Shown here: one piece after another, positions 2,700 to 53,844 of the stretch | Layout: each line of letters begins with the position of its first letter | Numbering within the stretch: the stretch's first letter is position 1 | NCBI GenBank assembly: GCA_963681505.1 | Contig: OY811982.1 | Location: 4,298,000 to 4,361,999 of the forward strand | DNA: 64,000 bases | Origin: Eunapius fragilis | Lineage: Eukaryota; Porifera; Demospongiae; Spongillida; Spongillidae | Reading direction: 5' to 3' | The notes under the pieces: model-generated | What the model saw: the letters and a program-made list of their open reading frames with translations, nothing else | What the model was told of the DNA's origin: nothing | The model's database searches: none | Made by a program: the position numbers and the translations under genes

Positions 2700-2899
2700 T
2701 GCTGTAATTAATGCGTTCGCACAAGTTTGCCTCTATTTAACGCTCAATGATTCCTAATTACAGTTACAAAAAAAAAACTGCTGAGTCATGGTTACCAATA
2801 AACCACAATTTGGATAGCCGCGGTAAGACAGTTACGTAATACTGCTCCCACTGCGTAAACACCACTTACTTTAGATTAGAGCTAAATCAACCAAGTTGA

Positions 2900-3382
2900 A
2901 AAACAAAAATGGCGACTTCAGGTTTAGCTGCGCATGGTGCCCAGGGGTTACCGATACTCAAACTTTTTATTTTTGGAAAACCTTGAGACCATCAATGACT
3001 AGTATATGGTGAAATAAAAACTTTGAGTATCATATGGCAAGTGACCTCTTTTTTGTAAAGTAAACATTAAACAAGTTTCATATTTAACCCTTTCATCACC
3101 CTGAAAAATGATTGACATCGTTCAGTAGCGCTGAGAAGGAGCTTCAATTTGATGCCTGATATATCAGCATCTGCACTGTGGTGGCAAAGATGTGAGCCCT
3201 CCAAGTTGCAATTTTTGGTAAAAAATCAATTATTCAGGAAGAAATATTTCGTAAACCATTAAAGTTATTATGTTGATAATAAGCATAATTAACATCCATA
3301 TCAAGGCAAACAAATATGAGAAGTTGCATCAATATCTGAACATGTGAGGGTCAAAAGTGATTGACATATAAAGGATTGACCC
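2900..3382. mobile_element. Terminal arm of the transposase-like element
   Basis: This non-coding stretch upstream of the transposase-like gene resembles an arm of the palindrome at 51111-52867. Shared landmarks occur in the same order: AAAAATGGCG, GATACTCA, CTTTTTATTTTTG, GAGTATCA, GCAAGTGAC, TTAACCCTTTC, CTTCAATTTGATGCC, and a final GGATTGACCC against GGAATGACCC. I infer it is the outer terminal repeat of the element encoding the gene at 136-2699, ending near 3382. The matching left terminus would lie outside the window. Identity is clearly below 100 percent, and was judged by eye. Confidence 0.6.
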
Positions 3383-4062
3383 AGTCCGGTACAGAACACT
3401 ATTTAGCATTCCTTGCCTATAGTTAACAACGCCTCCTACAGCGGCTAGGAACAACGGAAATTTTACACTTCGGAACAATGGACATTTACAACTCTTCATA
3501 GTTTTCTTTTATGCCCGATAATTGCATTCGCGAGTAAGATTAGTAGCATGACTGCATAAACATTCCCAGTTGATCGTGGTTGATAAATCCCAACCTAATC
3601 GATTGCTGCTTCGTGACGACGTTATGACGCCAGCTGCGACCCTGGAACCAAGGCACAGCTGTGTGAAAGGCGTGGCGTGAGCTGCTGCATGGTACAACAC
3701 GTGAGGAGTTGCAGTGACGTCACGCGCATCTTATGGTATGTGTTGTTTACTTACGTGAGCTACGTCATTGTATAGGGACTTACATTTTTATTTCGCTACA
3801 TCATTGTTATGGAACGTTTTTCAGAGTACTACATGTACAGTGAGTTGTCAGAAGAGGCAAAAGCGCATTATGAATCAAAGGTTATCAATAGTGGACTCAC
3901 AGACGATCCATACACCATCAAGGATGATTTTTGGGTCAAAGAGATGGATGTTGCTAATATTCCAGAGGTCAAATGAAGTGACATGTTTATTTATCCAATT
4001 TGTACTCCTAGCCCTTACACTAGAGAACAAATGAAGGTACATGTATGCATTATGCATATGTA
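3383..4062. other. No gene recognised
   Basis: AT-rich sequence with only short frames. The frame at 3768-4034 shows no recognisable motif. I see no feature I can support here. Confidence 0.5.
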
Positions 4063-4498
4063 CAGTAGCGGTCATAAAAAAGTTTACGTAATTATTTACG
4101 CCGTGGCTGTTGTACAGTATAACCGTAAACGTTGCATACATCGTAATAGGCATAGCGTATAACTCCCATATGTAAATTAATTGCGCGGTGGCCGTTGTAC
4201 AGTACGTGTATAATATAATAATGCCGCATGGACTAGCTAATTAAAACCATTTAACCCAGCACGTTTTCATTGAGTGACATGGTGTTCTCATTTTGCTTGT
4301 GAAGTGTCAAAAACGTGGTCTGGTCAACACATGTACGCTACGCTGTAAACTAATTACGCCCTAATTAGATACGCTAGTACTACGGCAGTAATTGTACAGT
4401 ACGACTGTAATAGCGTACCTTACATACGGCAGACCGTACAACGGCCACGGCATAAATAATTACGTAAATTTCTTTATGACCGCTACTGTATGTATGCA
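4063..4498. mobile_element. MITE with TA target duplication (Tc1/mariner-like)
   Basis: A 436-bp element with terminal inverted repeats of about 50 bp. It begins CAGTAGCGGTCATAAA and ends with the complement TTTATGACCGCTACTG. TA lies immediately outside each end (4061-4062 and 4499-4500). The TA duplication and CAGT start fit a Tc1/mariner-type non-autonomous element. No coding capacity is seen. Confidence 0.8.
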
Positions 4499-4499
4499 T

Positions 4500-4535
4500 C
4501 TGTGTGTGTGTGTGTGTGCATGTGCGTGTGTGTGA
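4500..4535. repeat. (GT)n microsatellite
   Basis: A short TG-rich run directly beside the right end of the MITE. Confidence 0.8.
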
Positions 4536-4713
4536 AAAAGGTAGAGATACAACCGGATGCACAGAGAACCGGATGACCTTAGGTGGAAATTAAACAGAAC
4601 ACAAACACGTGATCACACACACTTTAGTCATTGTATTAGTGTATCGTGGTTGGTTGCAGTGTGGGATAATATACTGTTAAGTATTTCGACACACTCACAT
4701 TGGTGACCCTGTT

Positions 4714-5110
4714 ATGGCTGAAGAACACACAGTCTCACTGAAACTTCCCACTTTCTGGCTATTCCAACCCGAAGTATGGTTCGCCCAGGCGGAAGCGCTA
4801 TTTAACTGGCAAAAAATCACTTCTGATGATACGAAGTACTACTATGTGCTATCTGTGCTGGACCAACCGACAGCGACACGGTTGCTTGACCGATTATCAT
4901 CGACTAACCTCAAGTGTGCCTTGGTCTTCCTCCATCAACACACAGTGCACAGCCAAAGCCCAGATACTGCATGGGATACATTCCACTTTTGCACAGTATT
5001 CACATCATCATCACATGGCTGCAACAGCGTCTCTGTCTGCTGTCGCAAGCCCTGAAGAAAGCAAACAACTACGCAAAAAATGCATAAGTATGTTATACAG
5101 ATAGTTATAA
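4714..5110 (+). mobile_element. LTR-element gag fossil (Ty3/gypsy-type)
   Basis: A short fragment resembles the start of gag polyproteins of Ty3/gypsy-like elements: a hydrophobic LPTFW, then PEVWFAQAEALF and an ITSDDTKYYYVLSVL stretch. Only the amino-terminal part of gag is recognisable. No LTR pair or pol genes were found nearby. It is an old, broken remnant. Confidence 0.65.
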
Positions 5111-5580
5111 AGCCAGAGGACTCACTGGCCACTAGTGTGAGATTTCCAGAAACCACATACATCGCCGTAACGTCTTATCAAAACAATGCAGTACGCACTT
5201 AATTGTTACATGTATCAAGATATTCTTGAAGAAAAGATGAACTTAAATTAGGTAAGCCAGTGTGTGAAGTGTGTGTAAAGCCTTTTGAATTGGAAAGTCG
5301 CAGTTGTACTCAATATTGAAAAATAAGCAAACTCTAGCTGTGACTGTTAAAGATAAGAGTGTTCCCGTACGTACAGGAACCAAGTCAAGTATATGGCTAC
5401 AGATGAATTTTTGATTGGTTTTCCTCAATTCATTGCCAGTCACAAGCCACTGCCCATTTCACATTCGCTTCTTCAAGCTCGTACGTCCTACGGAGGCTAA
5501 GCTGCAAGGGGTTAGTGCAGCCTGGGTTAGTGACTTCAAGGCATCAGACGGGTGGTTACCAAATTGGCGCTGGGCACTTT
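5111..5580. other. No gene recognised
   Basis: Spacer between the gag fossil and the Tigger-like remnant. Only unsupported short frames are present. Confidence 0.5.
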
Positions 5581-5589
5581 GATATAGGT

Positions 5590-6417
5590 AAATGTATATG
5601 TCTTTACAGTGAAGCTAGCGAAGTTGATTTATCTGTGGCAGAAGAGAAAGTTCAGAAACTTCGGGATACACTTTCTTCCAAGGGCTACAAACCTGATTGC
5701 ATTTTCAATATGGACGAAACAGTGCTTTTGTATAAAACTATACCTAATCGTACATACCTTCTGTCGGATGAAGGTGATCCACATAAAGCTAGAAGGGGTT
5801 CAAAACAAATGAGTGCGAAAGATAGAATGTCAATTCAACTGGAAGCTGCAAAATAGATCCTGTTGTGATTGGTACAGCTAAACGTCCTCGTTTTTTCCAA
5901 GATTGCATCCGTATTTTAGTCAAAAAAATGCATGGAACGATTGCGAATGCTATGGTCGATGGTGGAATTCAATTTTTTTGCCACAAATACAACAGTGGAC
6001 TAAGGATAATGTAGCTCTTCTGATAGATGGTTTTTAATGCCATGACGACACTTGTTCAGATCCAGTAGGGCAAGTTACTGTGTATAAGTTCCCTTCAACG
6101 TGACAGCAGTTTATCAACCTCTTGATCATTGTGTAATTGCCACTCTTAAGTCCAGTTACAAAAGGAAGCTTCTAACTAGTCTTGTTGATGCTGCTTCAAA
6201 TTTTGAGACCTTACAGTGTATGTCAAGCAAAATTCCAGCTGGCCATGCAGGGTTGAAACATGGGTGTCTTCTTCAGACTGATCTAGCAGAGATCGTGAAG
6301 GATATATGGAAAGCACTCTCGCCATCTGTAATTGCAGATAGCTGGAGACATGCCCACTGCCTACCAAGCCGAGACAAACTTTGGCGTCAAATTGAAGCTC
6401 AACATGATATATATTAA
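5590..6417 (+). pseudogene. Tigger/pogo-like DDE transposase remnant
   Basis: Pieces of a CENP-B/Jerky/Tigger-type transposase (DDE_1 superfamily), which cuts and pastes DNA. The first piece (to 5856) has KPDCIFNMDET, the catalytic-Asp motif of this family, followed by AKDRMSIQL. Sequence after 5856 keeps family-like segments but changes frame (GTAKRPRFFQ, then an IQFFCHKYNSG-like part). The last piece (6100-6417) has TAVYQPLDHCVIATLKSSYK, matching the conserved QPLDxxVxxxxKxxY region, and a C-terminal tail ending in a stop. The N-terminal HTH/CENP-B DNA-binding part is missing or unrecognisable. At least two frame breaks make it non-functional. Confidence 0.8.
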
Positions 6418-6419
6418 TA

Positions 6420-7230
6420 ACTTTAATACGTGATTAAGGGGTTAAATAAACATTATCATCATATCGCGGATTTCTTAATTGTGACTGTTTCCGGGTCAAT
6501 ACACTGATTTTTGTTTTTTCAGGATTGAAGTCTCCATCAACATTGTTGTTCTGTATGAAATAAAAATTCTGTGTATAGACAAGCTCTACAGACCATATCG
6601 AGTTTCACGAGTGTCCACTATCTTAAATGCTATGCAGTATATTTTAGCACTAATCTAAAGTGTTTGTTTATACGTCACAAGTGTGCTACATAAGTATCGC
6701 GCGAACTGCAACTAAGGACACTGGCCACAAATTGCGCTCAGCTAGTAAAAATGATTTTTTAAATGAGAGTATCTTTTTGAAGAATGAGCGCACTGTGTAG
6801 GACAACTCATCTATACTAGTAATGCACGAATAGAAAATTAAACTGCTTCATTCTTGTTGCAAGTAAAATGCAACCAGCCATGGCTGACAACTCTACAGCG
6901 GGCCCTCCTCTTGTAATGGCGGCAATTATGCACCATAGTGACGGTATCCAAGTAGCAGAACCGAATGTGCCTGTAGGCGAACCGGCAGTCATCGTGCCTA
7001 GGCAAACCAGCTGATGGCGAACAGGCAGCAATCGCACCTCTAGATGAACCAGCTGATGGACTCAAGTGGAGCGTTCTTCCAATGCAAGGAACAAAGCGCA
7101 TTCTTTACATAGAATGCAAAAAGCGGGTTCACTTAGATTAGCTGCGTCATCATTGAAATGATGTTGATAGCTATGGTATGATAGCTATGGTATGATAGTT
7201 CCATAACACACTTACCAATATAAGTTTTTT
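6420..7230. other. No gene recognised
   Basis: Non-coding sequence after the Tigger-like remnant. Overlapping short frames at 6816-7101 carry repeated PADG/GEPA-like codons but match nothing I recognise. Confidence 0.4.
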
Positions 7231-37731: not shown

Positions 37732-40700
37732 ATGGCAACAGCGTTGTACCTAGAGAACTTTTTGGAAAGTAAGCCGATTCGTTCACCTTAAATTCACGCT
37801 TGTAAAAAATTTAAGCTTCCAAACAGTTGGAATGCAACTGCCTTGTAATCTTGGTAGCTATACCGACGTACTTCATGTAGGCCTACTTGACTGCTTTTCT
37901 TTAGTTGTAATATACATTCAATTCGAAACTTTTATATACGGAGTAGAAAAGATCCCTTACGTAGTTATTATCCCGATCTGTAAAGGATAGGATGAATTAG
38001 ATGCCGTGGATGAGAAACCAATATTTGAGTGTTGCCATCTATGAAGCGTCCCATCATATGCTATCATGGTCTACCAAAATTTATTGTAAGATAGAGAATT
38101 TAACTGTTTTGAATAGCATTTTTCTTCGGATTGCGCATAATACTAGTCAATTCGAAAGAAAGTGGGAGGTTATTTTAGTACACAAAATGCAGTACATGTA
38201 CATAGCACATGTTTAGCATGCATACAAAGATACTTCACCCAGTTTGCATACAAAGATACTTCACCCATTGAAATTGTTAAAATAACTAATATTGCCATAT
38301 GTGTTATGGTGATCATTTAATGCAACTTTCTCAACTTTATTATATGTTTAATCACTACGTTGGTGTCCCGATTAATCTCTGCTGGCCTTAGTCGTAGCAC
38401 ACATGGATAAAATTGGAGACTTCTATGTAGGCGTTGTGAATATTCGTATATGTAGATTTTTGAGTCATGGAGTTATACCAACGTGGAGCTCAACACAACT
38501 GCAAGATGCCTGTCAATTCAAACTTTTCTATGGATAGTATTTATGTGCTGCTTAAGCCATTAATTACTAATATGTATTTATGCAGTGAGAATTGTATCAG
38601 GTTTAGTTTTTCATACATGTACTTGTAGGCATTGAAACCCTGCCTCAGGAGATGCAGAGGAACTTCAGTGTGATGCGTGATCTTGATCAACGAACACAAG
38701 GTGAAACAATCGACGTTGTGCTTTGTCATAGGCTTATGTATAAATGCCCCACCAGCCAAATAGAATAATAAAACTGGCATGTACAATATCTATGGCGCAA
38801 TATTTGGGAGTATATTCAGGCAATTTTTTTGAACAATAAAATGATTTGTGGTGTGCATTTTGGATTTGGTATTTGTTTTGCTGTCATTTTACGGTGTAAT
38901 AGGATAAGTGCACCAACAACTTAGTGTATACTGTAGTGGTTTTGTCTCTTTGCAGACCTCATTCATGAAATTGATTCCACTTCTCAAGACTTCAAAAAGA
39001 ATATTCACACTCTGTGCAAGGAAGATCGCAAGAGAAAGCTAACAAAGATCTCTGAGTCCTATCAAAAAGCCAGAGAGTATAGTGACAATAAAGTGCAAAT
39101 AGCAGTGCAGATGTATGAAATGGTGAGTGAAAGCATTGCTGCATGGAGGAGGTTACCCCCATGTGTGTCTGTGTGTACGATGTACATGTATATACACCTG
39201 TATGTGGTGTGCGTGTGTGTCTGTGTACAATGTATTAGCAACTCTGTGTGTGCGCATGTTTAGTTTGATGTGCATTTAGTACATCAGTGTTACAATGTAC
39301 ATTTATGTTCTGTGCCTTTTGTTGGTTAGCTGATCAGTGTTGTATGCATGTTGCGTGCATGCAATTTTGTTAGTACACATGCAATACATCTGCTGGGACC
39401 ATGGATATAATTTACAACATGTAACTCACTTTTTGTCACTGGTCTTACTGCTTAAGGTGGATAAGTACATTCGTAAGCTAGATACAGACCTTAGCAGATT
39501 TGAACAGGAACTTCAACTAAAGGACGCCAACTCCGGACACCCCTCTGTCTCTTCAGCATCTGATGGGCCTGGTACCTCTCAGCCAGGTATTTGCCTTTGG
39601 GTTGCAAGTAATGCTAGTGCTAAAGTGTACTAAGAGACATGTGGTGATGTGGTGCATTGACATGTACGATATACGTTTACTTATGTACATGTATGTGTGT
39701 GCACATGTGTAAGTGGAGAGGGTTTTTCTAAAATTGTAAATGCAATTTTACATAAATGGTATTCGAACCAAATGTAAATGTTTATGCAATCATGATGATA
39801 TACATGTAAGAAGTACAGTGGACTAAATAATACATAATACACACATAAACTTTGCACCAGACATATTATTTACACTCTGTGCTTCATACACTGCATGTAC
39901 ATGACCCCTCCTTTCACATGCAACACAATCACACACACCTACACACACCGCTGCATCATAGCAAGAGAACAGATTAGTTCTGGCGACCCTGTTATCAGTA
40001 AGAAGAGAAAGCTTCCCTCGTCGTCAGGTCCAGATGAGCCAGGGTGAGTGTATTACATATACAGGTCAGTAGGTTAGAAGTAGCTAGTGAAAAATGATCA
40101 GATATCGAATGCCTCTAAACCTTCCTAGCTATAAAGTGGGAGTCCCCTCCCCTTCCCACCATCTCCACCATCTTTGTATACTCTAGCCTACTATCACAAT
40201 TTAAATTCTATCTATACCACAGAGGCTAATTATGTGCATGTGCGCCATACATGATGTAGATTTGTACATAATGTACAGGTACATTTGTTTTCTATTATTC
40301 TCAGTCCATCAGGGTTGAAGGTCCCACCTGCTGCTGCAAGTGGAGCTAGTGCTGTTGCTGGTACTGATGTACTTGATATGCCTGTGGATCCTAATGAGCC
40401 TACATACTGCTTGTGTCACCAGGTACAGGGCGTGTGTGTGAGGGTGTATGTATGTGTGTCTTTGTGTGCATATGTGTGATGCTGATACATGTATTTGTAT
40501 GACATGCCTATGCATGAGTATAGTACAGTGCACATATATCAGGAACTACATTAGTAGTTCCTATACAGGAATTGACGCGGGTCATTGAAATCATTAACAA
40601 AACGCGAAGGACATCTTCAGGTATCAGATATATGAATAAAGCATGAAGCTGATATAATCATTACGTAATATAGAGTGCTATATTAACCGTTCCCATAGCG

Positions 40701-43700
40701 ACATTCACATATATTTAGAATTGTGCAGCGTTATAAACAGGTGGGATTTCATTTGATCGCAGTTTTGTTCACAACTTTTGGCTAGCGAAGTTGTTTTTTG
40801 TTTTTTTTTTTTTTTTTTTTTTTTCAAAATGCCTTCACATCAACAAAAGAGGAGAGCTAAACGACGAGAGGAATACCTCCAAATTTGAGACGACGAGTTA
40901 GAGTCCTCCCGCGTTTGGTACAGAGCTGATCCTAAACAAAAGTGGGCGTCTGTCATGATGGTTATTGGAGAGGGGGGGGGGTATTCGCAAAAATCAATAT
41001 ATTATATATATATATATATATGGAAGTGTCCAGCTAAATCACCCTTATGGTACTTTTTCAAAATTTCCAGAACAAGCAAAAGAAAAGTAACGCTCGCATT
41101 GAAATTATAAATTCAGTGCCTAATAACTTTGTGATGGATAGTCTGATTTAGGATGCGTAAGGACCATTTGACAGAAGCTCATGGGTGTTCAAGGAAAATC
41201 AAAAAATTTGAAAACTTGAAAAACTAGCCAGAAGGGTGATTCTGCTGGGCACCGTCCCATATATATATATATATATATATATATGGGACGGTGTCCAGCA
41301 AAATCACCCTTCTGGAGTTTTAATTTTATCACTATAAAAATTGTACGTTACACAAAGCAACATATCTTCACAACGGTTTTATATTTTCTTTTCAAATTTC
41401 GTACACTTGTTCACACATCAGTTCTCTCTGTGCAAACCGATTTTGGTGCTCTAGATAATTTCCATGCAATGGTTATAAAGGTCTCTAACCCAATGGGTTA
41501 AGATTCCTCATTTCTCCAGATACGAGTGACGATAACATGTCAAATTTGGAGTGTACATAGAAGAGTCCTGTAGCTATTGATTTCTGCAGATCGTTACGTT
41601 TTTTCTTATCCGTTACGGAGATATGGATTTTCAAAGTAATTCGACATTTCGCGCCACTCACCCTATTCCAATATGCCATTATGTAATGGTCACGCCCTTT
41701 AAATTTGAAGTTAGGTAATTAACTCCGCTTTGATCGTTCTACGTGGTATATAAGCGATCGTACCTCGTACGCTACGTTTCAACATAAAACAGTATCGTAC
41801 GTTCACATGTATCGCTTATGATGGATGCTGTGAATGTTCATGGTAGTTTATATTGTGCACCCTTTTTCTATATCTGCTCAGTTTGTGGCATGTACATGTA
41901 AGCATGCACGTACCATGCCTTCTAATCATGGGGCCCCTTCTTCACCCTCTACACCCTCTACACTAGTCTGGGGACCAGATGACTTGCTTGCGGCAGTCAG
42001 TTATCTGGTACACAAACTGCAGTACCTTTACTTAGTATGGCATATCTCTCTAGACCATTCATATTCACTGCCCTTCTTTCTTTCTTACCTCCTCCTCCTC
42101 CTCCTCCTCCTCCTCCTCCTCCTCTCCCTCCACCTCTTCCTATCTTCCTTCATCCACCCATCCTCCTCCTCCTCCTCCTCCTCTCCTCCTCCTCTCCTCT
42201 CCTCCTCCTTCTTTTACTCCCTCTCATTTTCCCTCCTACCTTCCCTCCTATTACACATAACACCCCTCCTCCTTTCTTTTGATTGCATCCACCCCTCCCC
42301 CTCCTCCTCCTCATCCTCCTACTTCTACGTTCCTACCTGTTGCACCTGTCCTACCTGTTGCATCCTCCCCTCCTCCTTTCTTTTTCCCGTTGCATCCACC
42401 CCCAACTTCTCCTCCCCCTCCTCTACGTCCTCCCCCCTCCTCCTCCTCCCTCCTCCTCCTCCTACTCCCCCCTCCTCTCCTCCCATCCTCCTCCTCTTAC
42501 TCCCTCTCATTTTTCCTCCTACCTTCCTTCCTATTACACCTACCTCTCCCCCTCCTCCTTTCTTTTGATTGTATCCACACCTCCCCCTCCTCCTCCTCCT
42601 CCTACTTCTACCTTCCTACCTGTTGCATCCTCCCCTCCTCCCCCTCCATCCACCCATCCTCCTCCTCCTCTCCTCCCCCTCCTCCTCCCCTCCCCTCCCT
42701 CCTCCTCCCCTCCCCTCCTCCTCCTCCCCTCCTCCTACTCCTCTTACTCCCTCTCATTTTCCCTCCCACCTTCCTTCCTATTACACCTACCCTCCCCTCC
42801 TCCTTTTTTTGATTGCATGCACACCTCCCCTTTCTCCTCCTCATCCTCCTACTTCTACCTTCCTACCTGTTGCATCCTCTCCTCCCCTCCTCCTCCTTCC
42901 ATTCTTCCCGTTGCATCCACCCCCACAATCTCCTCCCCACCTCTACTTCCTTCTCCTCCTTTCCCACCACCTCCTCCTATCTTCCTTTATCCACCCATCC
43001 TCCTCCTCCCCTCCTCCCCCTCCTCTTCCTTCCATTCTTCCCGTTGCATCCACCCCCACCTTCTCCTCCCCCTCCTCTACCTCCTTCTCCTTCTCCCCCT
43101 CCTCCTCTTCCTATCTTCCTTCATCCACCCATCCTTCTCCTCCTCTCCTCCCCTCCTCCTCCCCTCTCCTCCCCTCCTCCTCCTCCCCCTCCTCCTCCTC
43201 TTACTCCCTCTCATTTTCCCTCCTACCTTCCTTCCTAATACACCTACCCCTCCCCCACCTCCTTTCTTTTGATTGCATCCACACCTCCCCTCCTCCTCCT
43301 CATCGACCTACTTCTACCTTCCTACCTGTTGCATCCTCCCCTCCTCCCCCTCCATCCACCCATCCTCCTCCTCCTCTCCTCCCTCTCTTCCCTCCCCTCC
43401 CCCTCCTCCTCCTATCTTCATCCACCATCCTCCTCCCCTCCTCCACCTCTCCGTCTCCCCTCCTCTACCCTCCCCCTCCTCTCCTCCTCCCCTTCCCATC
43501 CCCTCCTCCGCCTCTTACTCCCTCTCATTTTCCCTCCTACCCTCCTTCCTATTAACCTAACCCCCTTTTGATTGCATTCACACATCCCCTCCTCCTCCTC
43601 CTCATCCTCCCGCTACTTCTACCTTCCTAACTGTTGCATCCTCCCTCTCCTCCCCCTCCTCTTCCTTCCATTCTTCCCGTTGCATCCACACCCACCTTCT

Positions 43701-46700
43701 CTCCTCCTCTACCTCCTCTTCCTATCTTCCTTCATCCTCCCCTCCCCTCCCCCTCCTCCTCCCCTCCTCCTCCTCCTCCTCTCCCTCCTTTTCTTCCTAT
43801 CTTCCTTCATCCACCCATCCTCCTCCTCCCCCTCCTCCTCCTCCCCTCCTCCTCCTCCTCCTCTCTCCTCCCCTCCTCTCCTCCTTTCTTTTAATTGCAT
43901 CCACACCTCCTCCTCATCCTCCTACTTTTACCTTCCTACCTGTTGCATCCTCCCTCTCCTCCCCCTCCTTCCATTCTTCCCGTTGCATCCACCCCCACCT
44001 TCTCCTCCCCTTCCTCTACCTCCTTCTCCTCCTCCTCCTCCTACCCTCCTCCTCCTCCTTCTACCTTTCTTCCCATTGCATCCACCCTCCTCCTTCTCCT
44101 CCTTTCCATTGTATAAATAAATGATGAGACATGTGTCGGAAGATACAATTCCTTATTTATCCAGCTTTAAAACTATTGGTATTGTAAGTCAATGTGTTGT
44201 AAATTTGCAAGCACCCGGAATCATTTTGGCACTTCAGCATATATAATGTTCTAGCAATATAACCTTTCATGGGTTATTAAAAAGGTGACGATGCAACAAC
44301 CAAGTAGGCACTGCCAACAATTAGGCAGATACATCAGATGTCCCCCCCCCCCCCCTCCTCTTTTTCCCCCCTCTCCTTATTTATAGTATACTTTGTTTTT
44401 GGAAAGACCTTAGTGCTATGACATGCACGCATGTAGTTCAAAACTACTTGTTCTAACTTCCATGTAGAGCATGTACAATGTACAAGGAACTTTGGATTCT
44501 ACCATGTACCATTCTACCATGCTTGCTTGTCTAAGTAAACCACTGGCCACCCACAATCTGTACTGATAAGGGTATAATAATATTCATAAAGGCTTATACC
44601 AACATACATTCCCTTGTGTAGAGCTCTAGAGTTCAGTTCTTGCACAGGCTCTGTATATATATCTCTTATAATAGCCTTTTTCTAGTTGCATGTAGTTTGC
44701 ACATCCCAAAAAATACATTCCACTGACTCCTAGGTGAAAACATATATATCGAGATGAACACTTCCTTTGAAACAAAGTGGTTAATATTAAATACCCTCCC
44801 TACCCAAGAAGGTGGAAGGGGAGGAGGAGAATGAGGAGAAGGTAGAGGAGGGGGAGGAGGTAGAGGAGGGGGAGGAGGTAGAGGAGAGGGAGGAAGAGGT
44901 AGAGGAGGGGGAGAAGGAGGAGGTAGAGGATGGGGAGGAGGAACAGGAGGAGGTAAAGGAGGGAGAGGGATGGGTGCAACTGGAAGAATGGAAGGAGGAA
45001 GAGAGGGAGGAGGGGAGGATGCAACCAGTAAGAAGGTAGAAGTAGGAGGATGAGGAGGAGGAGGAGGGGGAGGTGTGGATGCAAGGAGGAGGGGGAGGGG
45101 GAGGTGTAATAGGAAGGAAGGTAGAAGGGAAAATGAGAGGGAGTAAGAGGTGGAGGAGGAGGGGGAGGAGAGGAGGAGGAGAGGAGGAGGATGGGTGGAT
45201 GAAGGAAGATAGGAGGAGGAGGGGAGGAGGAGGAGAGGAGGAGGAGGATGGGTGGATGCAAGAAGATAGGAAGAGGAGTTAGATGAGGAAAAGGAGATAG
45301 AGGAAGAGGAGGAGAAGGTGGGGGTGGATGCAACGGGAAGAATGGAAGGAGGAGGGGAGGATGCAACAGGTAGGAAGGTAGACATAGGAGAATGAGGAGG
45401 AGGAGGGGAGGTGTAGATGAAATTAAAAGAAAGGTGGAGGGGTAGGTGTAATGGGAAGGAAGGTAGGAGGTAAAATGAGAGGGAGTAAGAGGAGGAGGAG
45501 GGGGAGAGAGGAGGAAGAGTTGAAGAGGGGAGGAGGAGGGGAGGAGGATGGGTGGATGAAGGAAGATAGGAAGAGGAGGGAGAAGAGGGGGAGGAGAAGG
45601 TGGGAGTGGATGCAGTGGGAAGAATGGAAGGAGGAAGAGGGGGAGGATGCAACGGGTAGGAAGGTAGAAGTAGGAGATGAGGAGGATGAGGAGGAAGAGG
45701 AGAGGGAGGTGTGGATGCAATGAAACGAAAGGAGGAGGGGGTAGGTGTAATAGGAAGGAAGGTAGGAGGGAAAATGAGACGGAGTAAGAGGAGGAGGAGG
45801 GGAGGAGGAGGAAGGGAGGAGGTGGGGAGAATGGGGAGGAGGATGGGTGGATGAAGGAAGATAGGAGGAGGAGGGAGAAGAGGAGGAGGTAGAGGAGGGG
45901 GAGGAGAAGGTGGGGGTGGATGTAACGGGTAGAATGGAAGGAGGAGGAGGGGAGGAGGGGAGGATGCAATGGGTAGGAAGGTAGAAGTAGGAGGAGGGGG
46001 AGGGGAGGAGGAGGGGAGGAGGAGGAGGGGATGAGGAGGAGGGAAGGAGGAGGATGGGAGGAGGATGGGTGGATGAAGGAAGATAGGAAGAGGAGGGAGA
46101 AGAGGAGAGGGAGGTTGAGAAGGGGAAGGAGAAGGTGGGGGGTGATGCAACGGAAAGAATGGAAGGAGGAGGGGAGGATGCAACAGGTAGGAAGGTAGAA
46201 GTAGGAGGAGGAGGAGGAGGAGGGGAGGATGCAACGGGCAGGAAGGTAGAAGTAGGGGAGGGGAGGAGGAGGAGAGGGGATGAGGGGAGGAGGAGGAGGG
46301 GAGGAGGAGAGAGGAGGAGGGGGGAGGAGGAGGAGGGAGGAGGAGGGGAGGAGGATGGGTGGATGAAGATAGGAGGAGGAGGAGGTGGAGAGGAGGGAGG
46401 AGGAGGTGGAGAGGAGGGAGGAGGAGGGGGAGAGAAGGGAGTAGGAGGGGAGGAGAGGAGGAGAGAGGAGGAGAGGAGGAGGGGAGGAGAGGAGGAGAGA
46501 GGAGGAGGGGAGAGAGGAGGAGGGGAGGAGAGGAGGAGGGGAGGAGAGGAGGAGAGAGGAGGAGGGGAGGAGAGGAGGAGGGGAGGAGAGGAGGAGAGAG
46601 GAGGAGGGGAGGAGGAGGATGGGTGGATGAAGAAAGATAGGAAGAGGAGGAGAAGGAGGTAGAGGAGAGGGAGGAGAAGGTGGGGTGGATGCAACGGGAA

Positions 46701-49700
46701 GAATGGAAGGAAGAGGAGGGGAGGAGGGGAGGATGCAACGGGTAGGAAGATAGAAGTAGGAGGATGAGGAGGAGGAGGGAGGTGTGGATGCAATCAAAAG
46801 AAAGGAGGGGGTAGGTGTAATAGGATAGAAGGTAGGAGGGAAAATGAGAGGACTAGGAGGAGGGGAGGAGGAGGAGGAGGGGAGGAGGAGGGAGTAGGGG
46901 AGGAGGAGGGGAGAAGGAGGATGGGTGGATAAAAGAAGATAGGAAGAGGAGGAGGGAGAGGAGGAGAAGAAGGTAGAGGAGGGGGAGGAGAAGGTGGGGT
47001 GGATGCAACGGGAAAAATGAAAGGAGGGGAGGATGCAACAGGTAGAAAGGTAGAATTAGAATGAGGAGGAGGAGGGGAGGTGTGGATGCAATGAAACGAA
47101 AGGAGGAGGGGTAGGTGTAATAGGAAGAAAGGTAGGAGGGAAAATGAGACGGAGTAAGAGGAGGAGGAGGGGAAGGAGAGGAGGAGGAGGAAGGGAGGAG
47201 GAGGGGAGAATGGGGAGGAGGATGGGTGGATGAAGGAAGATAGGAGGAGGGGGAGGAGAGGAGGAGGATGGGTGGATGGAGGGGGAGGATGCAACGGGTA
47301 GGAAGGTAAAAGTAGGAGGATGAGGAGGAGGGGAGGTGTGGATGCAATCAAAAGAAAGGAGGAGGGTGAGGGGTAGGTGTAATAGGAAGGAAGGTAGGAG
47401 GGAAATGAGAGGGCGTAAGAGGAGGAGGAGGAGGAGAGGATGGGAGGAGGAGGAGGGGAGGAGGAGGAGGGGAGGAGGAGGAGGGGAGGAGGATGGGTGG
47501 ATGAAGATAGGAGGAGGGGGAGAGGAGGAGGGGAGGAGAGGAGGAGACAGGAGGAGAGAGGAGGAGGGGAGGAGGAGGATGGGTGGATGAAGGAAGATAG
47601 GAAGAGAAGGAGAAGGAGGTAGAGGAGAGGAGGAGAAGGTGGGGAGTGGATGCAACGGGAAGAATGGAAGGAAGAGGAGGGGAGGAGAGGGAGGAGGGAG
47701 GGATGCAACGGGTAGGAAGGTAGAAGTAGGAGGATGAGGAGGAGGAGGGGAGGTTTGGATGCAATCAAAAAAAGGAGGGGAGGGGTAGGTGTAATAAGAA
47801 AGAAGGTAGGAGGGAAAATGAGAGGGAGTAAGAGGAGGAGAAGGGGAGGTGAGGAGGAGGGAGGAGGAGATGGAGGAGGGAGGAGGAGGGGAGGAGGATG
47901 ATGGGTGGATGAAGGAAGATAGGAAGAGGAGGAGGGGGAGGAGGAAAAGGAGGTAGAGGAAGGGGAGGAGAAGTTGGGGGTGGATGCAACGGGAAAAAGA
48001 AAGGAGGAGGGGAGGATGCAACAGGTAGGAACGTAGAAGTAGGAGGATGAGGAGGAGGAGGGGAGGTGTGGATGCAATTAAAAGAAAGGAGGAGGAGGGG
48101 TGTTAGGTGTAATAGGAAGGTAGGAGGGAAAATGAGAGGGAGTAAAAGGAGGAAGAGGAGGGGAGGAGGAGGAGGGAGGAGGAGGAGGGGAGGAGAGGAG
48201 GGGGAGGGAAGGGGAGGGGAGGAGGAGGATGGGTGGTTGAAAGGAAGATAGGAAGAGGTGGAGTGAGAGGAGGAGAAGGAGGAGGAGGAGGTAAGAAAGA
48301 AAGAAGGGCAGTGAATATGAATGGTCTAGAGAGATATGCCATACTAAGTAAAGGTACTGCAGTTTGTGTACCAGATAACTGACTGTCGCAAGCATGTCAT
48401 CTGGTCGTCAGACTAGTGTAGAGGGTGTAGTGGGTGAAGAAGGTGGCCCCATGATTAGAAGGCATGGTACGTGCATGCTTACATGTACATGCCACAAACT
48501 GAGCAGATATAGAAAAAGGGTGCACAATATAAACTACCATGAACATTCACTGCATCCAGCATAAGCTATACATGTGAACGTACGATACTGTTTTATGTTG
48601 AAACGTAGCGTACGAGGTACGATCGCTTATATACCACGTAGAACGATCAAAGCGGAGTTAATTACCTAACTTCAAATTTAAAGGGCGTGACCATTACATA
48701 ATGGCATATTGGAATAGGGTGAGTGGCGCGAAATGTCGAATTACTTTGAAAATCCATATCTCCGTAACGGATAAGAAAAAACGTAACGATCTGCAGAAAT
48801 CAATAGCTACAGGACCCTTCTATGTACACTCCAAATTTGACATGTTATCGTCACTCGTATCTGGAGAAATGTGGAATGTTAACCCATTGGGTTAGAGACC
48901 TTTATAACCATGGCATGGAAATTATCTAGAGCACCAAAATCGGTTTGCACAGAGAGAACTGATGTGTGAACAAGTGTACGAAATTTGAAAAGAAAATATA
49001 AAACCGTTGTGAAGATATGTTGCTTTGTGTAACGTACAAATTTTATAGTGATAAAATTAAAACTCCAGAAGGGTGATTTTGCTGGACACTGTCCCATATA
49101 TATATATATATATATGGGACAGTGTCCAGCTAAATCACCCTTATGGTACTTTTTCAAAATTTCCAGAACAAGCAAAAGAAAAGTAACGCTCGCATTGAAA
49201 TGTATGGCTAATTATAAATTCAGCGCCTAATAACTTTGTGATGGATAGTCCGATTTAGGATGCGTAAGGACCATTTGACAGAAGCTCATGGGTATTCAAG
49301 GAAAATCAAAAATTTTGAAAACTTGAAAAACTAGCCAGAAGGGTGATTCTGCTGGACACTGTCCCATATATATATATTGAATAGAAGTAACAAGTAAAGA
49401 AAAACATTCTCTAACGAGAAAGTTGGTGGGGTATAGAAATCTGAGTTGGTGGGGTAAAGAAAACTGAGTCAAGAATCCTATATTTAGCACGTGTAAATGT
49501 AACATAACCAAAAGAAGTGCTAAATATAGGATTTTTGTCGGGGTTTCTTTTCCCAAAACCTTGTTCCCTTCCTTTTTACTCCACTTTTGCCTCCAATTCC
49601 TATATCCCACCAACTTTCTACTTTCTCGTTAGAGAATGTTTTTCTTTATTTGTTTTATCATGGTGGTGATACGAATTCTACATGTACATGTACCATGTAG

Positions 49701-52700
49701 ATGTGCTCATTAATTAGCATCATACATCAAGCAGTCCGGGATACATCCAGAACGCTGATATTTAGCTTTCTACGTAATATCAGTGACATGGTAATGAATG
49801 CTCGATGTAATCTAGCCATTGTTGTGTTGCATTGTCTTTCAACTTAGTTGCAAGTATCAGCACATTATATTCAGGCCAATTTACTTTGCGCCACAGTATT
49901 ACATGTACTTTAAACATGTAGTTTTCCAGATGGTTCAATGGACATGTAAGTTATATTATGTTTATGACAGGTCTCTTTTGGAGAAATGATTGGATGTGAC
50001 AACCCTGATGTAAGTTATGTGTACCTTAAGATTGACACAGTTACGTGTACTTGTATGTTTGAATGATCAATGATACGGTTCCATGTAGATCATATCTGTG
50101 TGATTTAAGAATATTAGCTATACACTAATTTGTTTTTAATTTAGGAATATAAACATGTACATAACAGTGCAGATGTAACATTATTTACCTACTACCTAGG
50201 CTAAATAATATACCAGTAGCCTCGTTCTTGAAAGAAGAGCCCTCACATTTTGCCCTGACAAGGGTCATGCCCATTTTCATGGAGTTCTGTGATGGCTGCA
50301 AGTTTGACTCTACACATGGTAGAGTGAGAGGCACTTGGCTTCAGTACCCCAAATGTTGGTAGTGGTATGAAAATATGGAAAGAAGGATGAATGTGAAATA
50401 GGCGTGTGTTAATGTCCATGTAGTATCTTTTAGAACATTTGTTGATGTTAAATTTGCACATTTGCAGTGTGTCATATTAAGTTTATTTTTATTGTAACTG
50501 TATTCTAGACTAGCTAGCGATTAAAGTATTCACAATTTATTTATCGCTCTATCTCATGTTTGCCAACACCGTTGAGCATGTGGATTATGTATTTCATTAA
50601 GCAGTTATTAGTGAACAGTCATTTGGACGAACCGTCAATAGATGGCCATGGACTAATTACATGGTCGTATTTAGACTCATGTCAAAATTTGACAGATGTT
50701 TACAAGCGTACACGTATTATAATGTGTTTTTCATAGATGCAATAAATGCTGTGAAGGTGTGTCTTTTTGGAAGTTGCTTTTCACCACACATAATTGGCAA
50801 CTAGCTGAAATATCTATTACATGTATGTACATGTAGCTAAAAATTATTTGTGCCGCAGCTACAATAAACTATAGCACTACTGACCATGCTTGCTCGTTAA
50901 TCTTCAGACCCAGATGAAATTTTTTATGAGCAGGACAGTTTTTAAAGTATTACTACTTGTATACTCAGTATCATTTATCTAGGGGAAAATAAAAATGATT
51001 ACAGATCACATTTTGAAAAGCTATGTTTACAGGTTATTTAATGTTTGAAAATATTGCATGTAAGGATAGAACTTTGGTGTGTGTATGTGTGTGTGTGTGT
51101 ATGTGTGTGTGGGTCATTCCGTGGGCTGTCAGGAATGAATTGGACAGCACCCCTCAGATTTGTGTGCAATTTATCATATTTGCTTGGCCTAATATGGATG
51201 TTACTTTAACGCATTAATTTTTAAAATCGCACGAGTGGTTTACGAATTAACACCGTCATGAATAATTAATTGTTTTCCACTTTGAAGACTCATAACTCCC
51301 TACTCACAGAACGTGTATGCCTATTGTTGGCATCAAATTGAAGTTCTCTTAGTATACAATCCGACTATAATATGTTTCTGGGGGAGAGGCGAAAGGGTTA
51401 ATGAATAAATGTTTATACAGCACGGTTTTCAATATTTAAGTCACTTGCAGGGTGATACTCAAGAATTTTGTTTTTGTATATGAAAACTGTTCATTGTCCT
51501 TACATTTTACAAAAATAAAAAGTCTGAGTATCAGCTATTTCTGGGAACTGCAGAGGGTTAAAGGGCAAGACGCCATTTTTAATTTCTTCATGGTTGATTT
51601 TATCACTAATGAGAAGCAAGTGTTGTTTAGATACGTCTCAAGGGTATTACATAATACTGTCCTCAACTATCACAACAGTAAGAAAGGGCGTTGGTAATTT
51701 AAAAAATGATTTTTAGTACATCGAATTGCGCATTTATTGGAAACCGTTACTAAGCCTTCTCATAATGGGATCGTTGCTTAGGTAAGCGTGCTCGTTATTA
51801 CTGTCATATGTGGTTAAAGCTCAACATTTCTTCTGATTGGAAGTAAAAAGGAACAACGAGGTTTAAATGAACCGGCGGTGAGACCTATTCAACCGGCTCA
51901 AGAAGTGGTGGTCCCTCAACCTGTTTATACGCTGGATGACGGCGTACCGGGGATCGGGGATCCCACCCGCGCGCGTACCGGGGATCCCACCCGCGGCACC
52001 ACTACCGTGGTGCCGCGGGTGGGATCCCCGGTACGCCGTCATCCGGCGTATGAACAGGTAGAGGGACCACCACTTCTTGAGCCGGTTGAATAGGTCTCAC
52101 CGCCGGTTCATTTAAACCTCGTTGTTCCTTTTTACTTCCAATCAGAAGAAATGTTGAGCTTTAACCACATATGACAGTAATAACGAGCACGCTTACCTAA
52201 GCAACGATCCCATTATGAGAAGGCTTAGTAACGGTTTCCAATAAATGCGCAATTCGATGTACTAAAAATCATTTTTTAAATTACCAACGCCCTTTCTTAC
52301 TGTTGTGATAGTTGAGGACAGTATTATGTAATACCCTTGAGACGTATCTAAACAACACTTGCTTCTCATTAGTGATAAAATCAACCATGAAGAAATTAAA
52401 AATGGCGTCTTGCCCTTTAACCCTCTGCAGTTCCCAGAAATAGCTGATACTCAGACTTTTTATTTTTGTAAAATGTAAGGACAATGAACAGTTTTCATAT
52501 ACAAAAACAAAATTCTTGAGTATCACCCTGCAAGTGACTTAAATATTGAAAACCGTGCTGTATAAACATTTATTCATTAACCCTTTCGCCTCTCCCCCAG
52601 AAACATATTATAGTCGGATTGTATACTAAGAGAACTTCAATTTGATGCCAACAATAGGCATACACGTTCTGTGAGTAGGGAGTTATGAGTCTTCAAAGTG

Positions 52701-53844
52701 GAAAACAATTAATTATTCATGACGGTGTTAATTCGTAAACCACTCGTGCGATTTTAAAAATTAATGCGTTAAAGTAACATCCATATTAGGCCAAGCAAAT
52801 ATGATAAATTGCACACAAATCTGAGGGGTGCTGTCCAATTCATTCCTGACAGCCCACGGAATGACCCGTGTGTGTGATAGTACTGGCGCTTGTGAATGGC
52901 ATACAAATATATGTTGTATCATCTATTATTACACGCAACTATTCTTAAAATAATAATTTTCCCAATGGCAGGCCAAACCTCTGACGTGTTCTGTGTATAT
53001 ATATATTCATCAGTGTATTCATCAGTGTATCAATCATTGTGTCTTACCTGCAGTGCCCAATAGAATGGTTTCACTTTCAGTGTGTGGGCCTTTCTGCTAA
53101 ACCGAAGGGGAAATGGTGAGTTTTCTCATAAAGCATTGCATGTACTTGTACTACACGTGAATGTTGCATGGTAAGCCATAAGAAGACACAACACTTCTAT
53201 GTCATTCTGCACAGAAAGGTTTCTTATTATTAGATACAAAATTATTGTTGTGTACATGTACTGTGTATGCTGGTTTCAGCAACCTGTACATGTAGGAGGA
53301 AACCAGCAACTAGATTCGTTCTGTGGTTGTAGATGTTCAATGTTGCATAAGCTCTTACCTTGTGCACACATGGATTTCTTATCCTGTAGTAATTTACCCT
53401 TCATCCATAAGATTAGGAATATGATAACAAAGGCACACAAGCTTGAAACTTTTTATTTATCATCTGGCAGCCTCAGGGTGCCATCATGGCTTGGTTGTGG
53501 TTGCCTATTCCAGATGTGCTACATGTATCAATTTCTTCATCTCTCTCTTCCTCTTAGAAAGGTCCTTTGTGTTACATAAGACATACACCATGCGTTGCAT
53601 TGCATTGTAAACCAGTGTACACAAAGCTAAGGGTTACATAACATTATTGAAGCTTATACAACAGAATGAATGTAGTTGCTGGTTCCTGAACATAGGTACG
53701 TATGTATATGTATGTGGGTGTGTGTATACATACAGTTCTTGTGCTTTGCAATCTATATTGGAGGGAACATATTTTTAATTGCCTTTCTTTAGGTATTGTT
53801 CACGCTGCAGCCAAGAGAGGGAAAGACACAGAAAGAAGCACTGA
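37732..53844 (+). CDS. ING5: ING4/ING5-type PHD-finger protein, 9 exons
   Basis: Nuclear histone reader of the inhibitor-of-growth family. ING4/5 proteins recruit HBO1 or MOZ acetyltransferase complexes to H3K4me3. Exons by my reading: 37732-37768, 38629-38700, 38956-39122, 39457-39586, 39962-40043, 40305-40422, 49971-50009, 53054-53115, 53793-53844; every junction is in phase and gives 252 aa, near the 240-249 aa of human ING4/5. N-terminus [12 protein letters not shown], then [23 protein letters not shown] and a dimerising coiled coil through [20 protein letters not shown] basic SKKRKLP segment suggests an NLS. PHD finger: [35 protein letters not shown], with all eight C4HC3 ligands present. 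The start lies 170 bp from the divergent RhoGEF start. Intron 6 is 9.5 kb and intron 7 is 3 kb, each swollen by a giant inverted-repeat element. Confidence 0.93.
40800..40980 (+). pseudogene. Short basic transposon-protein fragment in ING intron 6
   Basis: Starts [18 protein letters not shown], then after a stop [13 protein letters not shown]. Repeated SRxWYxADP-type basic N-termini occur in repeat-borne proteins of sponges and other invertebrates (recollection). Too short to classify. A T-run of 20 or more precedes it. Confidence 0.35.
41022..41258 (+). mobile_element. Small GTGTCCAGC element, left copy (A1)
   Basis: 237 bp, from GGAAGTGTCCAGCTAAATCA to GATTCTGCTGGGCACCGTCCC; the ends are inverted repeats. 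It stands between (TA)n tracts. An almost identical copy in the same orientation lies at 49116-49365. Confidence 0.88.
42088..44108 (+). repeat. Polypyrimidine minisatellite array (left arm)
   Basis: About 2 kb of almost pure C/T on plus. Higher-order units recur, marked by TTTTGATTGCATCCAC, CTACTTCTACCTTCCTACCT, CCGTTGCATCCACCC, TTCCTTCATCCACCCATCC and TTACTCCCTCTCATTTTCC, with TCC runs between. Successive TTTTGATTGCATC marks stand roughly 250-480 bp apart, so unit length varies. Confidence 0.9.
44117..44800. other. Unique centre of the giant inverted-repeat element
   Basis: About 680 bp of ordinary AT-rich sequence between the two arrays, containing one C run (44343-44355). No coding sequence or motif recognised. 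Confidence 0.6.
44808..48290 (+). repeat. Polypurine minisatellite array (right arm)
   Basis: About 3.5 kb of almost pure A/G on plus, the inverted counterpart of the left array, with the same unit landmarks in reverse complement (GTGGATGCAATCAAAAG, GGATGGGTGGATGAAGGAAG). It is longer than the left array, so the two have changed copy number independently. Pure GAGGAGGGGAGG runs occur around 46380-46620. Confidence 0.9.
49116..49365 (+). mobile_element. Small GTGTCCAGC element, right copy (A2)
   Basis: GGGACAGTGTCCAGCTAAAT to GCTGGACACTGTCCC, 250 bp, flanked by (TA)n. Direct repeat of A1 at 41022-41258 with a few differences, including a short extra segment near 49200. Confidence 0.88.
49393..49653. 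mobile_element. MITE with AAAGAAAAACATTCTC ends
   Basis: Left arm AAGAAAAACATTCTCTAACG and GAGAAAGTTGGTGGG face their complements at about 49600-49650. An inner pair TCCTATATTTAGCAC / GTGCTAAATATAGGA strengthens the fold. About 260 bp, in ING intron 6. Confidence 0.8.
51080..51110. repeat. (GT)n microsatellite hosting an insertion
   Basis: GT repeat that resumes as GTGTGTGTGA immediately after the palindrome ends at 52867, so the palindrome lies inside it. Confidence 0.85.
51111..52867. mobile_element. 1.76-kb near-palindromic element in ING intron 7
   Basis: Starts GGGTCATTCCGTGGGCTGTC and ends with the reverse complement. Arms of about 860 bp are almost identical: an 81-aa frame at 51452-51697 (plus) has an identical twin at 52281-52526 (minus), coordinates summing to 103978. 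Near the centre (about 51989) the left arm has extra GGGGATCCCACCCGCGCG-type sequence and several substitutions, so the arms are not exact copies. Arms share ordered landmarks with 2900-3382. No transposase inside: it is a non-autonomous foldback element. Confidence 0.9.

Follow-up and report, generated by a model that had tools for sequence, protein, structure and literature searches.

A probable foldback-type DNA transposon with purine/pyrimidine arms, dispersed in the genome of the sponge Eunapius fragilis and present in an intron of an ING4-like gene

An intron of an ING gene in the sponge Eunapius fragilis holds a 7.8-kb inverted repeat that contains kilobase arrays of purine- or pyrimidine-rich DNA. 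In an earlier note, made from the letters alone, it was regarded as an unusual element to survive in a conserved chromatin gene, and a double-stranded RNA (dsRNA) stem of several kilobases was proposed for the transcript. What is this element, and how did it come to lie there? We analyzed the locus within a stretch of 64,000 nt (contig OY811982.1, positions 4,298,000 to 4,361,999, assembly GCA_963681505.1), here called the window, and compared it with the 219-Mb genome of this one assembly. Very probably, the element is a non-autonomous foldback-type DNA transposon mobilized by a transposase encoded elsewhere.

The window copy runs from GGGAC at 41285 to GTCCC at 49095, with TA tracts on both flanks, and consists of the following parts.

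41285-49095, + (oriented by the core): complete foldback element of 7811 bp, with shared GGGACRGTGTCCAGC termini
41285-42087, +: left outer terminal inverted repeat (TIR), arm A, ~0.8 kb; 651 bp of it matched elsewhere, and it resembles arm B
42088-44103, +: left array, pyrimidine-rich on the + strand (Tandem Repeats Finder, marker order, composition)
44104-44807, +: core (middle domain), 0.7 kb, identified by core matches; no open reading frame (ORF) of its own and no Rfam match
44808-48291, +: right array, purine-rich on the + strand (Tandem Repeats Finder, marker order, composition)
48292-49095, -: right outer TIR, arm B (complementarity, family matches, arm comparison)

Both termini begin with GGGACRGTGTCCAGC, as do those of other copies, and the end sequence of the family is GGGACRGTGTCC. 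Positions 41265-41935 and 48445-49115 are 99% complementary over 671 nt, with coordinates summing to 90380 as noted earlier, and the next complementary pair (41930-42172/48207-48449) reaches 87%. The outer arms of ~800 bp are 97-99% identical (97-98% per 200 bp between arms A and B, overall difference 1.5%). The mirror symmetry that had been described for the whole arms holds for these outer ~0.8 kb; further inward, over the 1.4 kb compared, identity between the arrays ranges from 55 to 94% per 200 bp, and neither their length (2.0 vs 3.5 kb) nor the order of their sub-repeats agrees. The opposite strand polarity of the arrays was confirmed, the left being 89% pyrimidine and the right 90% purine on the + strand. 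Homopyrimidine or homopurine runs of at least 30 nt number 12 in the left array and 20 in the right, compared to 2 in the remaining window. Both arrays are built of degenerate ~290-bp higher-order units with recognizable sub-blocks in recurring order, and arm plus array measure ~2.8 kb on the left and 4.3 kb on the right. (GGA)4 tracts are abundant (22 and 17, vs fewer than 1 in shuffles). An enrichment of G-quadruplexes was rejected, as motifs with G3 or longer runs are rarer than in shuffles (right, 4 vs 28; left, 3 vs 16). Array ORFs of up to 751 aa on the pyrimidine strand were not accepted as genes; long ORFs are expected there because stop codons need purines. In the core, ORFs of at least 100 aa occur only as read-through from the arrays, and Rfam gave no match in 40400-53100 at the gathering threshold.

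Arm and core both recur in the genome. Counting the two places in the window, the 651-bp outer-arm query matched 40 places over its full or nearly full length at 98-100% (40 scored of 1220 first-look candidates), and the core gave 42 matches at 87-100% (40 scored of 100 candidates); because core matches reach down to 87%, older family members exist as well. We read 24 other loci in 25 fetched stretches, two of which are halves of one locus (L030/31). All 24 showed the order arm, pyrimidine array, core, purine array, arm, wherever gaps, nested insertions, and the ends of the stretches left it visible. Both arrays were visible at 21 loci, always with the pyrimidine-rich one on the left and the purine-rich one on the right, while the remaining three showed one array; wherever both were read, the core lay between them. 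Both outer arms were present in the window and at 17 loci, one of which (L032) has a damaged end. The other seven loci are incomplete: an arm is interrupted ~450-470 bp from its end in L036, L042, and L043; L045 reaches the end of its stretch; and no second arm was seen past the N gaps of L039, L041, and L044. Long inverted arms with an outer domain and internal tandem repeats around a middle domain, and a dispersed multicopy family with discrete termini, are what characterizes the foldback class, and both were found here. The ING copy is thus one among many dispersed copies and not the singular element it had been taken for.

The earlier note had named an assembly fold-back as an outcome that would overturn its description. 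In such a case, one arm would have been duplicated inversely, or a chimera formed, during assembly. Arrays of this kind are indeed hard to assemble, as indicated by N gaps inside or beside them at six read loci (L021, L034, L038, L039, L041, and L044). However, the same structure at 24 other loci with distinct flanks, the 1.5% difference between the window arms, and the unequal length and order of the arrays make such an artefact a practically negligible explanation, as does the finding that two short elements flanking the window copy (see below) are 93% alike rather than identical.

An array sub-block gave 415 genome matches with at most 2 mismatches and none for the reversed control; its exact form occurs 87 times, grouped in 60 clusters. 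Thirteen of these clusters have sites on both strands, and in each of them the minus-strand sites are to the left of those on the plus strand; the other 47 show one strand only, counting exact matches. For six loci we compared the outer 2.2 kb of each arm, part of each array included, with the same arm of the window copy, setting gaps aside. Identity was 0.95-1.00 per 200 bp, with 4 of 121 such segments below 0.97; arm A of L034, which is short and whose alignment to the window ends at ~0.9 kb, was omitted. Sub-repeat order is largely kept, with length variants in L021, L024, L034, and L035, and the outer arms differ by 1.5-2.0% on average between copies. We made no use of the BLAST identities over the whole element (83-94%), in which gaps are scored as differences. 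Because the same arm is 95-100% alike between loci, whole units must, judged by these alignments, have been amplified recently, and because this likeness includes the array part of the 2.2-kb stretches, the arrays predate the spread.

Arms A and B carry different letters at several diagnostic sites, which makes exchange between them visible. The mean distance between the two arms of one copy was 0.0160 (18 copies) vs 0.0203 between copies, and none of 10,000 permutations gave a value as low. The two arms are nearly identical in L034 (0.0000), L027 (0.0015), and L030/31 (0.0044), several other copies are mosaic, and in L035 the two arms remain alike (0.95 or above) as far as ~1.4 kb, which is within the array. 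A within-copy distance below that between copies, together with identical and mosaic arms, is by its pattern the signature of arm-to-arm conversion, for which we infer a route through either repair or a hairpin. With dozens of near-identical copies and separable arm types, this conversion is measurable.

The termini connect the element to a miniature inverted-repeat transposable element (MITE), two copies of which enclose it in the window.

41022-41258, +: flanking MITE with related ends, 93% alike to the right-hand one
41259-41284, no strand: left (TA)n target tract, from the sequence
49096-49115, no strand: right (TA)n target tract, from the sequence
49116-49365, +: flanking MITE in the same orientation; full-length matches at 94-100%, one neighboring copy at 80% (40 scored of 2089 first-look candidates)

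A 31-base end pattern matched the genome 300 times without mismatch (156+144) and its reversed control never. Comparisons of ends with each other and with transposase domains covered the first 100 of these 300 ends (contigs C1-C6); 24 of the 100 face inward in 12 pairs, at distances of 3.8-9.2 kb. L046, the one site read among the unpaired ends, is a ~250-bp MITE. This MITE shares its first 15 bp with the foldback end, differs at 1-2 of 31 positions, and is 93-95% alike over positions 1-41. The Repbase rule assigns elements to the same superfamily if target duplications have the same length and the first 11 bp differ by at most one mismatch (PMC4455052, available part); here the first 15 bp are identical, and the duplication lengths are ambiguous. 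One 3.8-kb pair of family ends, C4:8275535-8279318, has no match among the listed core places (40 of 100 scored) or the exact array sites; it is possibly a different or a coding member. At L034 the foldback copy (504-6499) is flanked by two inverted copies of a MITE-like repeat beginning GGGACAGGGTCTGAG, forming a larger palindrome.

Could the unit instead have begun as a satellite array, gained inverted ends, and multiplied by recombination rather than transposition? The ~290-bp units are satellite-like, many sites are TA microsatellites and hence possible recombination spots, and four of 16 copies lack a fitting 4-bp duplication. Discrete common termini with differing flanks, the inversion of the arrays about a center in 13 of 13 two-strand clusters, and the core found between them wherever both were read argue against this origin, which we hold to be very unlikely.

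For a transposon mobilized in trans, the following course would account for the data. A transposase encoded elsewhere would recognize the terminal ~31 bp, almost identical to those of the ~250-bp MITE, and would insert either element at ATAT or AATT, often in (TA)n tracts flanking earlier insertions; this preference would explain why the ING copy sits between two MITEs. Before the spread of the family, the arrays would have expanded within the arms of an ancestral element, and not in the same way on both sides. Amplification of complete elements would have followed recently, and conversion between arms would keep the outer 0.8 kb alike.

The 4-mers flanking the ends, ATAT at 24 and AATT at 4 of 32 ends, support this explanation. 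Several observations weigh against it, and they concern the target duplication, the empty site, the transposase, and two broken arms. Among the 16 copies evaluated (L030/31, the damaged L032, and the incomplete loci were omitted), the duplication is ambiguous: 4 bp fits 12 copies and 2 bp also fits 12. L024 fits only 4 bp (AATT), L028 only 2 bp, and L022, L023, and L033 neither, and TA-tract flanks such as those of the window copy permit any even length. The flanks of L030/31 do not fit 4 bp, while 9 bp would fit, and no empty allele was seen in the assembly. On these sequences a duplication of 4 bp is favored over 2 bp, without being claimed. Two longer duplications were considered and rejected, namely the 8-10 bp of Mutator/MULE elements, which L030/31 (9 bp) and the TA tracts would allow, and the 7-8 bp of the P superfamily; L021, L024, L026, and L040 permit at most 4 bp.

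The core of L030/31 carries a nested 4.4-kb insert with ends GGGGCAGTG and GGGGCAGTGCAAGAG at ATAT and no ORF above 154 aa. Compared to paralogous cores, which have 7, 8, or 9 nt at this place, it added ~4-6 bp. By its ends it apparently belongs to a sister family.

No transposase was recognized between the foldback ends of any copy read (ORFs of at least 110 aa at the fetched loci judged by eye, 8 of them searched in Pfam), in line with what had been noted for the window copy. PHIS, MULE, and piggyBac (PF13843) domains are plentiful in the genome, but on the inner side of the ends compared we found none at a distance that an element would span (by script for PF13359, by eye for PF10551 and PF13843). 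The closest approach, 10.0 kb, is that of a piggyBac domain to the unpaired end at C2:10513292, again on the inner side. For PF10551 (MULE), 35 matches were found and none within 10 kb inside those ends; for PF13359 (DDE_Tnp_4), there were 151 matches, and none of the 80 positions on C1-C6 lies within 15 kb inside them. We infer movement through a transposase acting in trans.

The abundance of PHIS domains raises the question of whether the element is a non-autonomous PHIS (ISL2EU-like) member. ISL2EU elements have AT duplications and TIRs that usually start with GG (PMC4482050, available part), and the foldback ends start with GG and allow a 2-bp duplication in 12 of 16 copies. On the other hand, L024 permits only the 4-bp AATT, the sister-type insert in L030/31 added 4-6 bp, depending on the paralogous empty site chosen, and no PHIS gene was found within 15 kb inside the ends compared. 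Membership in this group is possible but rather unlikely.

Broken arms of L036 and L043, with breakpoints four bases apart, are followed by related genes. Could these genes be what is left of the autonomous source? That two loci carry them at almost one and the same point of the arm, and that their family has more than 150 matches, would be compatible with it. However, the adjoining segments (L036:1-3525 and L043:7667-9991) both begin with CACGGGKGTTACG, which differs from the foldback ends; protein-level likeness between the genes is only ~40-47% (tblastx, E 2e-51), whereas the arms are nearly identical; and a third arm, that of L042, is interrupted nearby by unrelated DNA. A source role is thus highly improbable. 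Since the arm DNA is nearly identical and the genes have diverged, the genes, of each of which one side was read, are most likely other transposons inserted into the arms. They show weak RING and integrase hints below the Pfam cut-off. One exon gave 154 genome matches at E 1e-8 (150 of 713 candidates scored), and by this count the genes probably represent an abundant, uncharacterized transposon family.

Other coding sequences were seen at two loci. L044:583-4966 holds ORFs that by eye resemble a Gag-pol retrotransposon, and the foldback end of this locus adjoins an N gap. L037:7167-9568 (C21:2390576-2392977) holds ORFs with a weak likeness to tetrapyrrole methylases (PF00590, 22 bits, below the cut-off of 27.8; first ORF searched), and these may resemble borosin-type peptide N-methyltransferases.

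How much of the proposed RNA stem is to be expected? The minimum-energy fold of the element RNA, at -0.69 kcal/mol per nt, joins the outer arms to each other over 99% of their length and the left array to the right one over 91% of its own. After a single shuffle of one array, 88% of the left array was still paired, and after a single shuffle of both, 85%. For the arrays plus core the energy is -0.627 kcal/mol per nt; shuffling the arrays raises it to -0.48, and a single control stretch gave -0.276. Because shuffled arrays pair to such an extent, the kilobase array stem is predicted to be mostly an effect of composition. A stem of several kilobases in the intron RNA is thus plausible as a model, while the near-perfect duplex in the dsRNA that had been proposed shrinks to ~0.8 kb. 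That the copy is kept by selection in ING as a cis-acting dsRNA or small-RNA source would fit these folding energies, but the element is also present at many other loci and we found no feature that distinguishes the ING copy; we regard such a role as very improbable.

It is doubtful, though somewhat less remote, that the arms are selected rather than passive, with polypurine arrays evading or feeding host RNA surveillance or aiding arm pairing and conversion in repair. Owing to the inverted-repeat structure, a transcript entering from either side runs through a pyrimidine-rich array first and a purine-rich one second. Host transcripts through any copy would thus carry a self-pairing pyrimidine-purine stem plus purine RNA prone to stay on the template. 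The copies offer natural replicates for the effects of long intronic pyrimidine-purine inverted repeats on splicing, editing, and small RNAs.

The host gene was placed as follows.

40305-40422, +: ING exon upstream of the element, ending in YCLCHQ
49971-50009, +: ING exon downstream of the element, with a PHD-finger match
53054-53115, +: next ING PHD exon, with a PHD-finger match

By its matches the gene is ING4-like, on the + strand: the ING domain matched PF12998 (E 1.8e-15), and the best PDB matches of the PHD finger were ING4 structures (E 4.4e-34). The identity of the PHD finger rests on the PDB match because the sole Pfam PHD match, to an NSD-type model, is below the cut-off. The location in an ING intron given in the earlier note was borne out, since an intron of 9,548 bp (40423-49970) with GT...AG ends, which interrupts the PHD finger between CLCHQ and VSFGEM, encloses the element. 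One foldback copy is thus placed inside an intron of a chromatin gene, where it most likely behaves as a passenger spliced out with the intron. The next ING intron holds a second near-perfect palindrome of 1.76 kb (51111-52867; 97% overall, outer 400 bp identical), which belongs to a multicopy family of its own (80 matches, 40 scored of 335 candidates). Its ends GGGTCATTCC lie within GTGTGTGT on both sides, so that the length of its duplication is unreadable. With two palindromic families in adjacent introns, this ING gene therefore contains two inverted-repeat elements.

How does the family compare with known systems? Tm1 is reportedly Mutator-type, with duplications of ~9 bp. By its title it is a Mutator/Foldback family and shares the foldback type (PMC3169594). 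ISL2EU/PHIS elements share AT-rich targets and TIRs usually starting with GG but have TIRs of 6-259 bp and a 2-bp AT duplication (PMC4482050), and the foldback element showed no link to a PHIS gene in the comparison above. Galileo, a P-superfamily element of Drosophila, likewise has long dynamic TIRs that may hold tandem repeats and exceed 4 kb; it differs in its 7-8-bp GTATTAC-type duplications and in copies that keep transposase segments, and the available part of the source does not mention a purine/pyrimidine polarity (PMC4168063). Among the titles and abstract starts listed in searches of open-licence papers, no foldback element with kilobase purine/pyrimidine arms was found. The closest system in anatomy and MITE partner is Tetris/DAIBAM of Drosophila virilis, as far as described in the available part of PMC4079207. 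Tetris is also non-autonomous with a non-coding middle and without a known autonomous source, and its long TIRs have an outer domain of up to 866 bp, ~220-bp tandem repeats, and termini shared with a MITE (PMC4079207). Its target duplications are 8-10 bp and its TIRs reach at most 1.7 kb (PMC4079207). The duplications considered here are short and AT-rich and do not fit 8-10 bp at the clear sites, the repeats are strand-asymmetric (purine/pyrimidine) and ~290 bp long, and arms plus arrays reach ~2.8 and 4.3 kb. The element represents a new family within a class of mobile DNA that is already known: a foldback family that spread recently, has strand-asymmetric arms of kilobase length, and shows its array motif clustered at 60 places in the genome.

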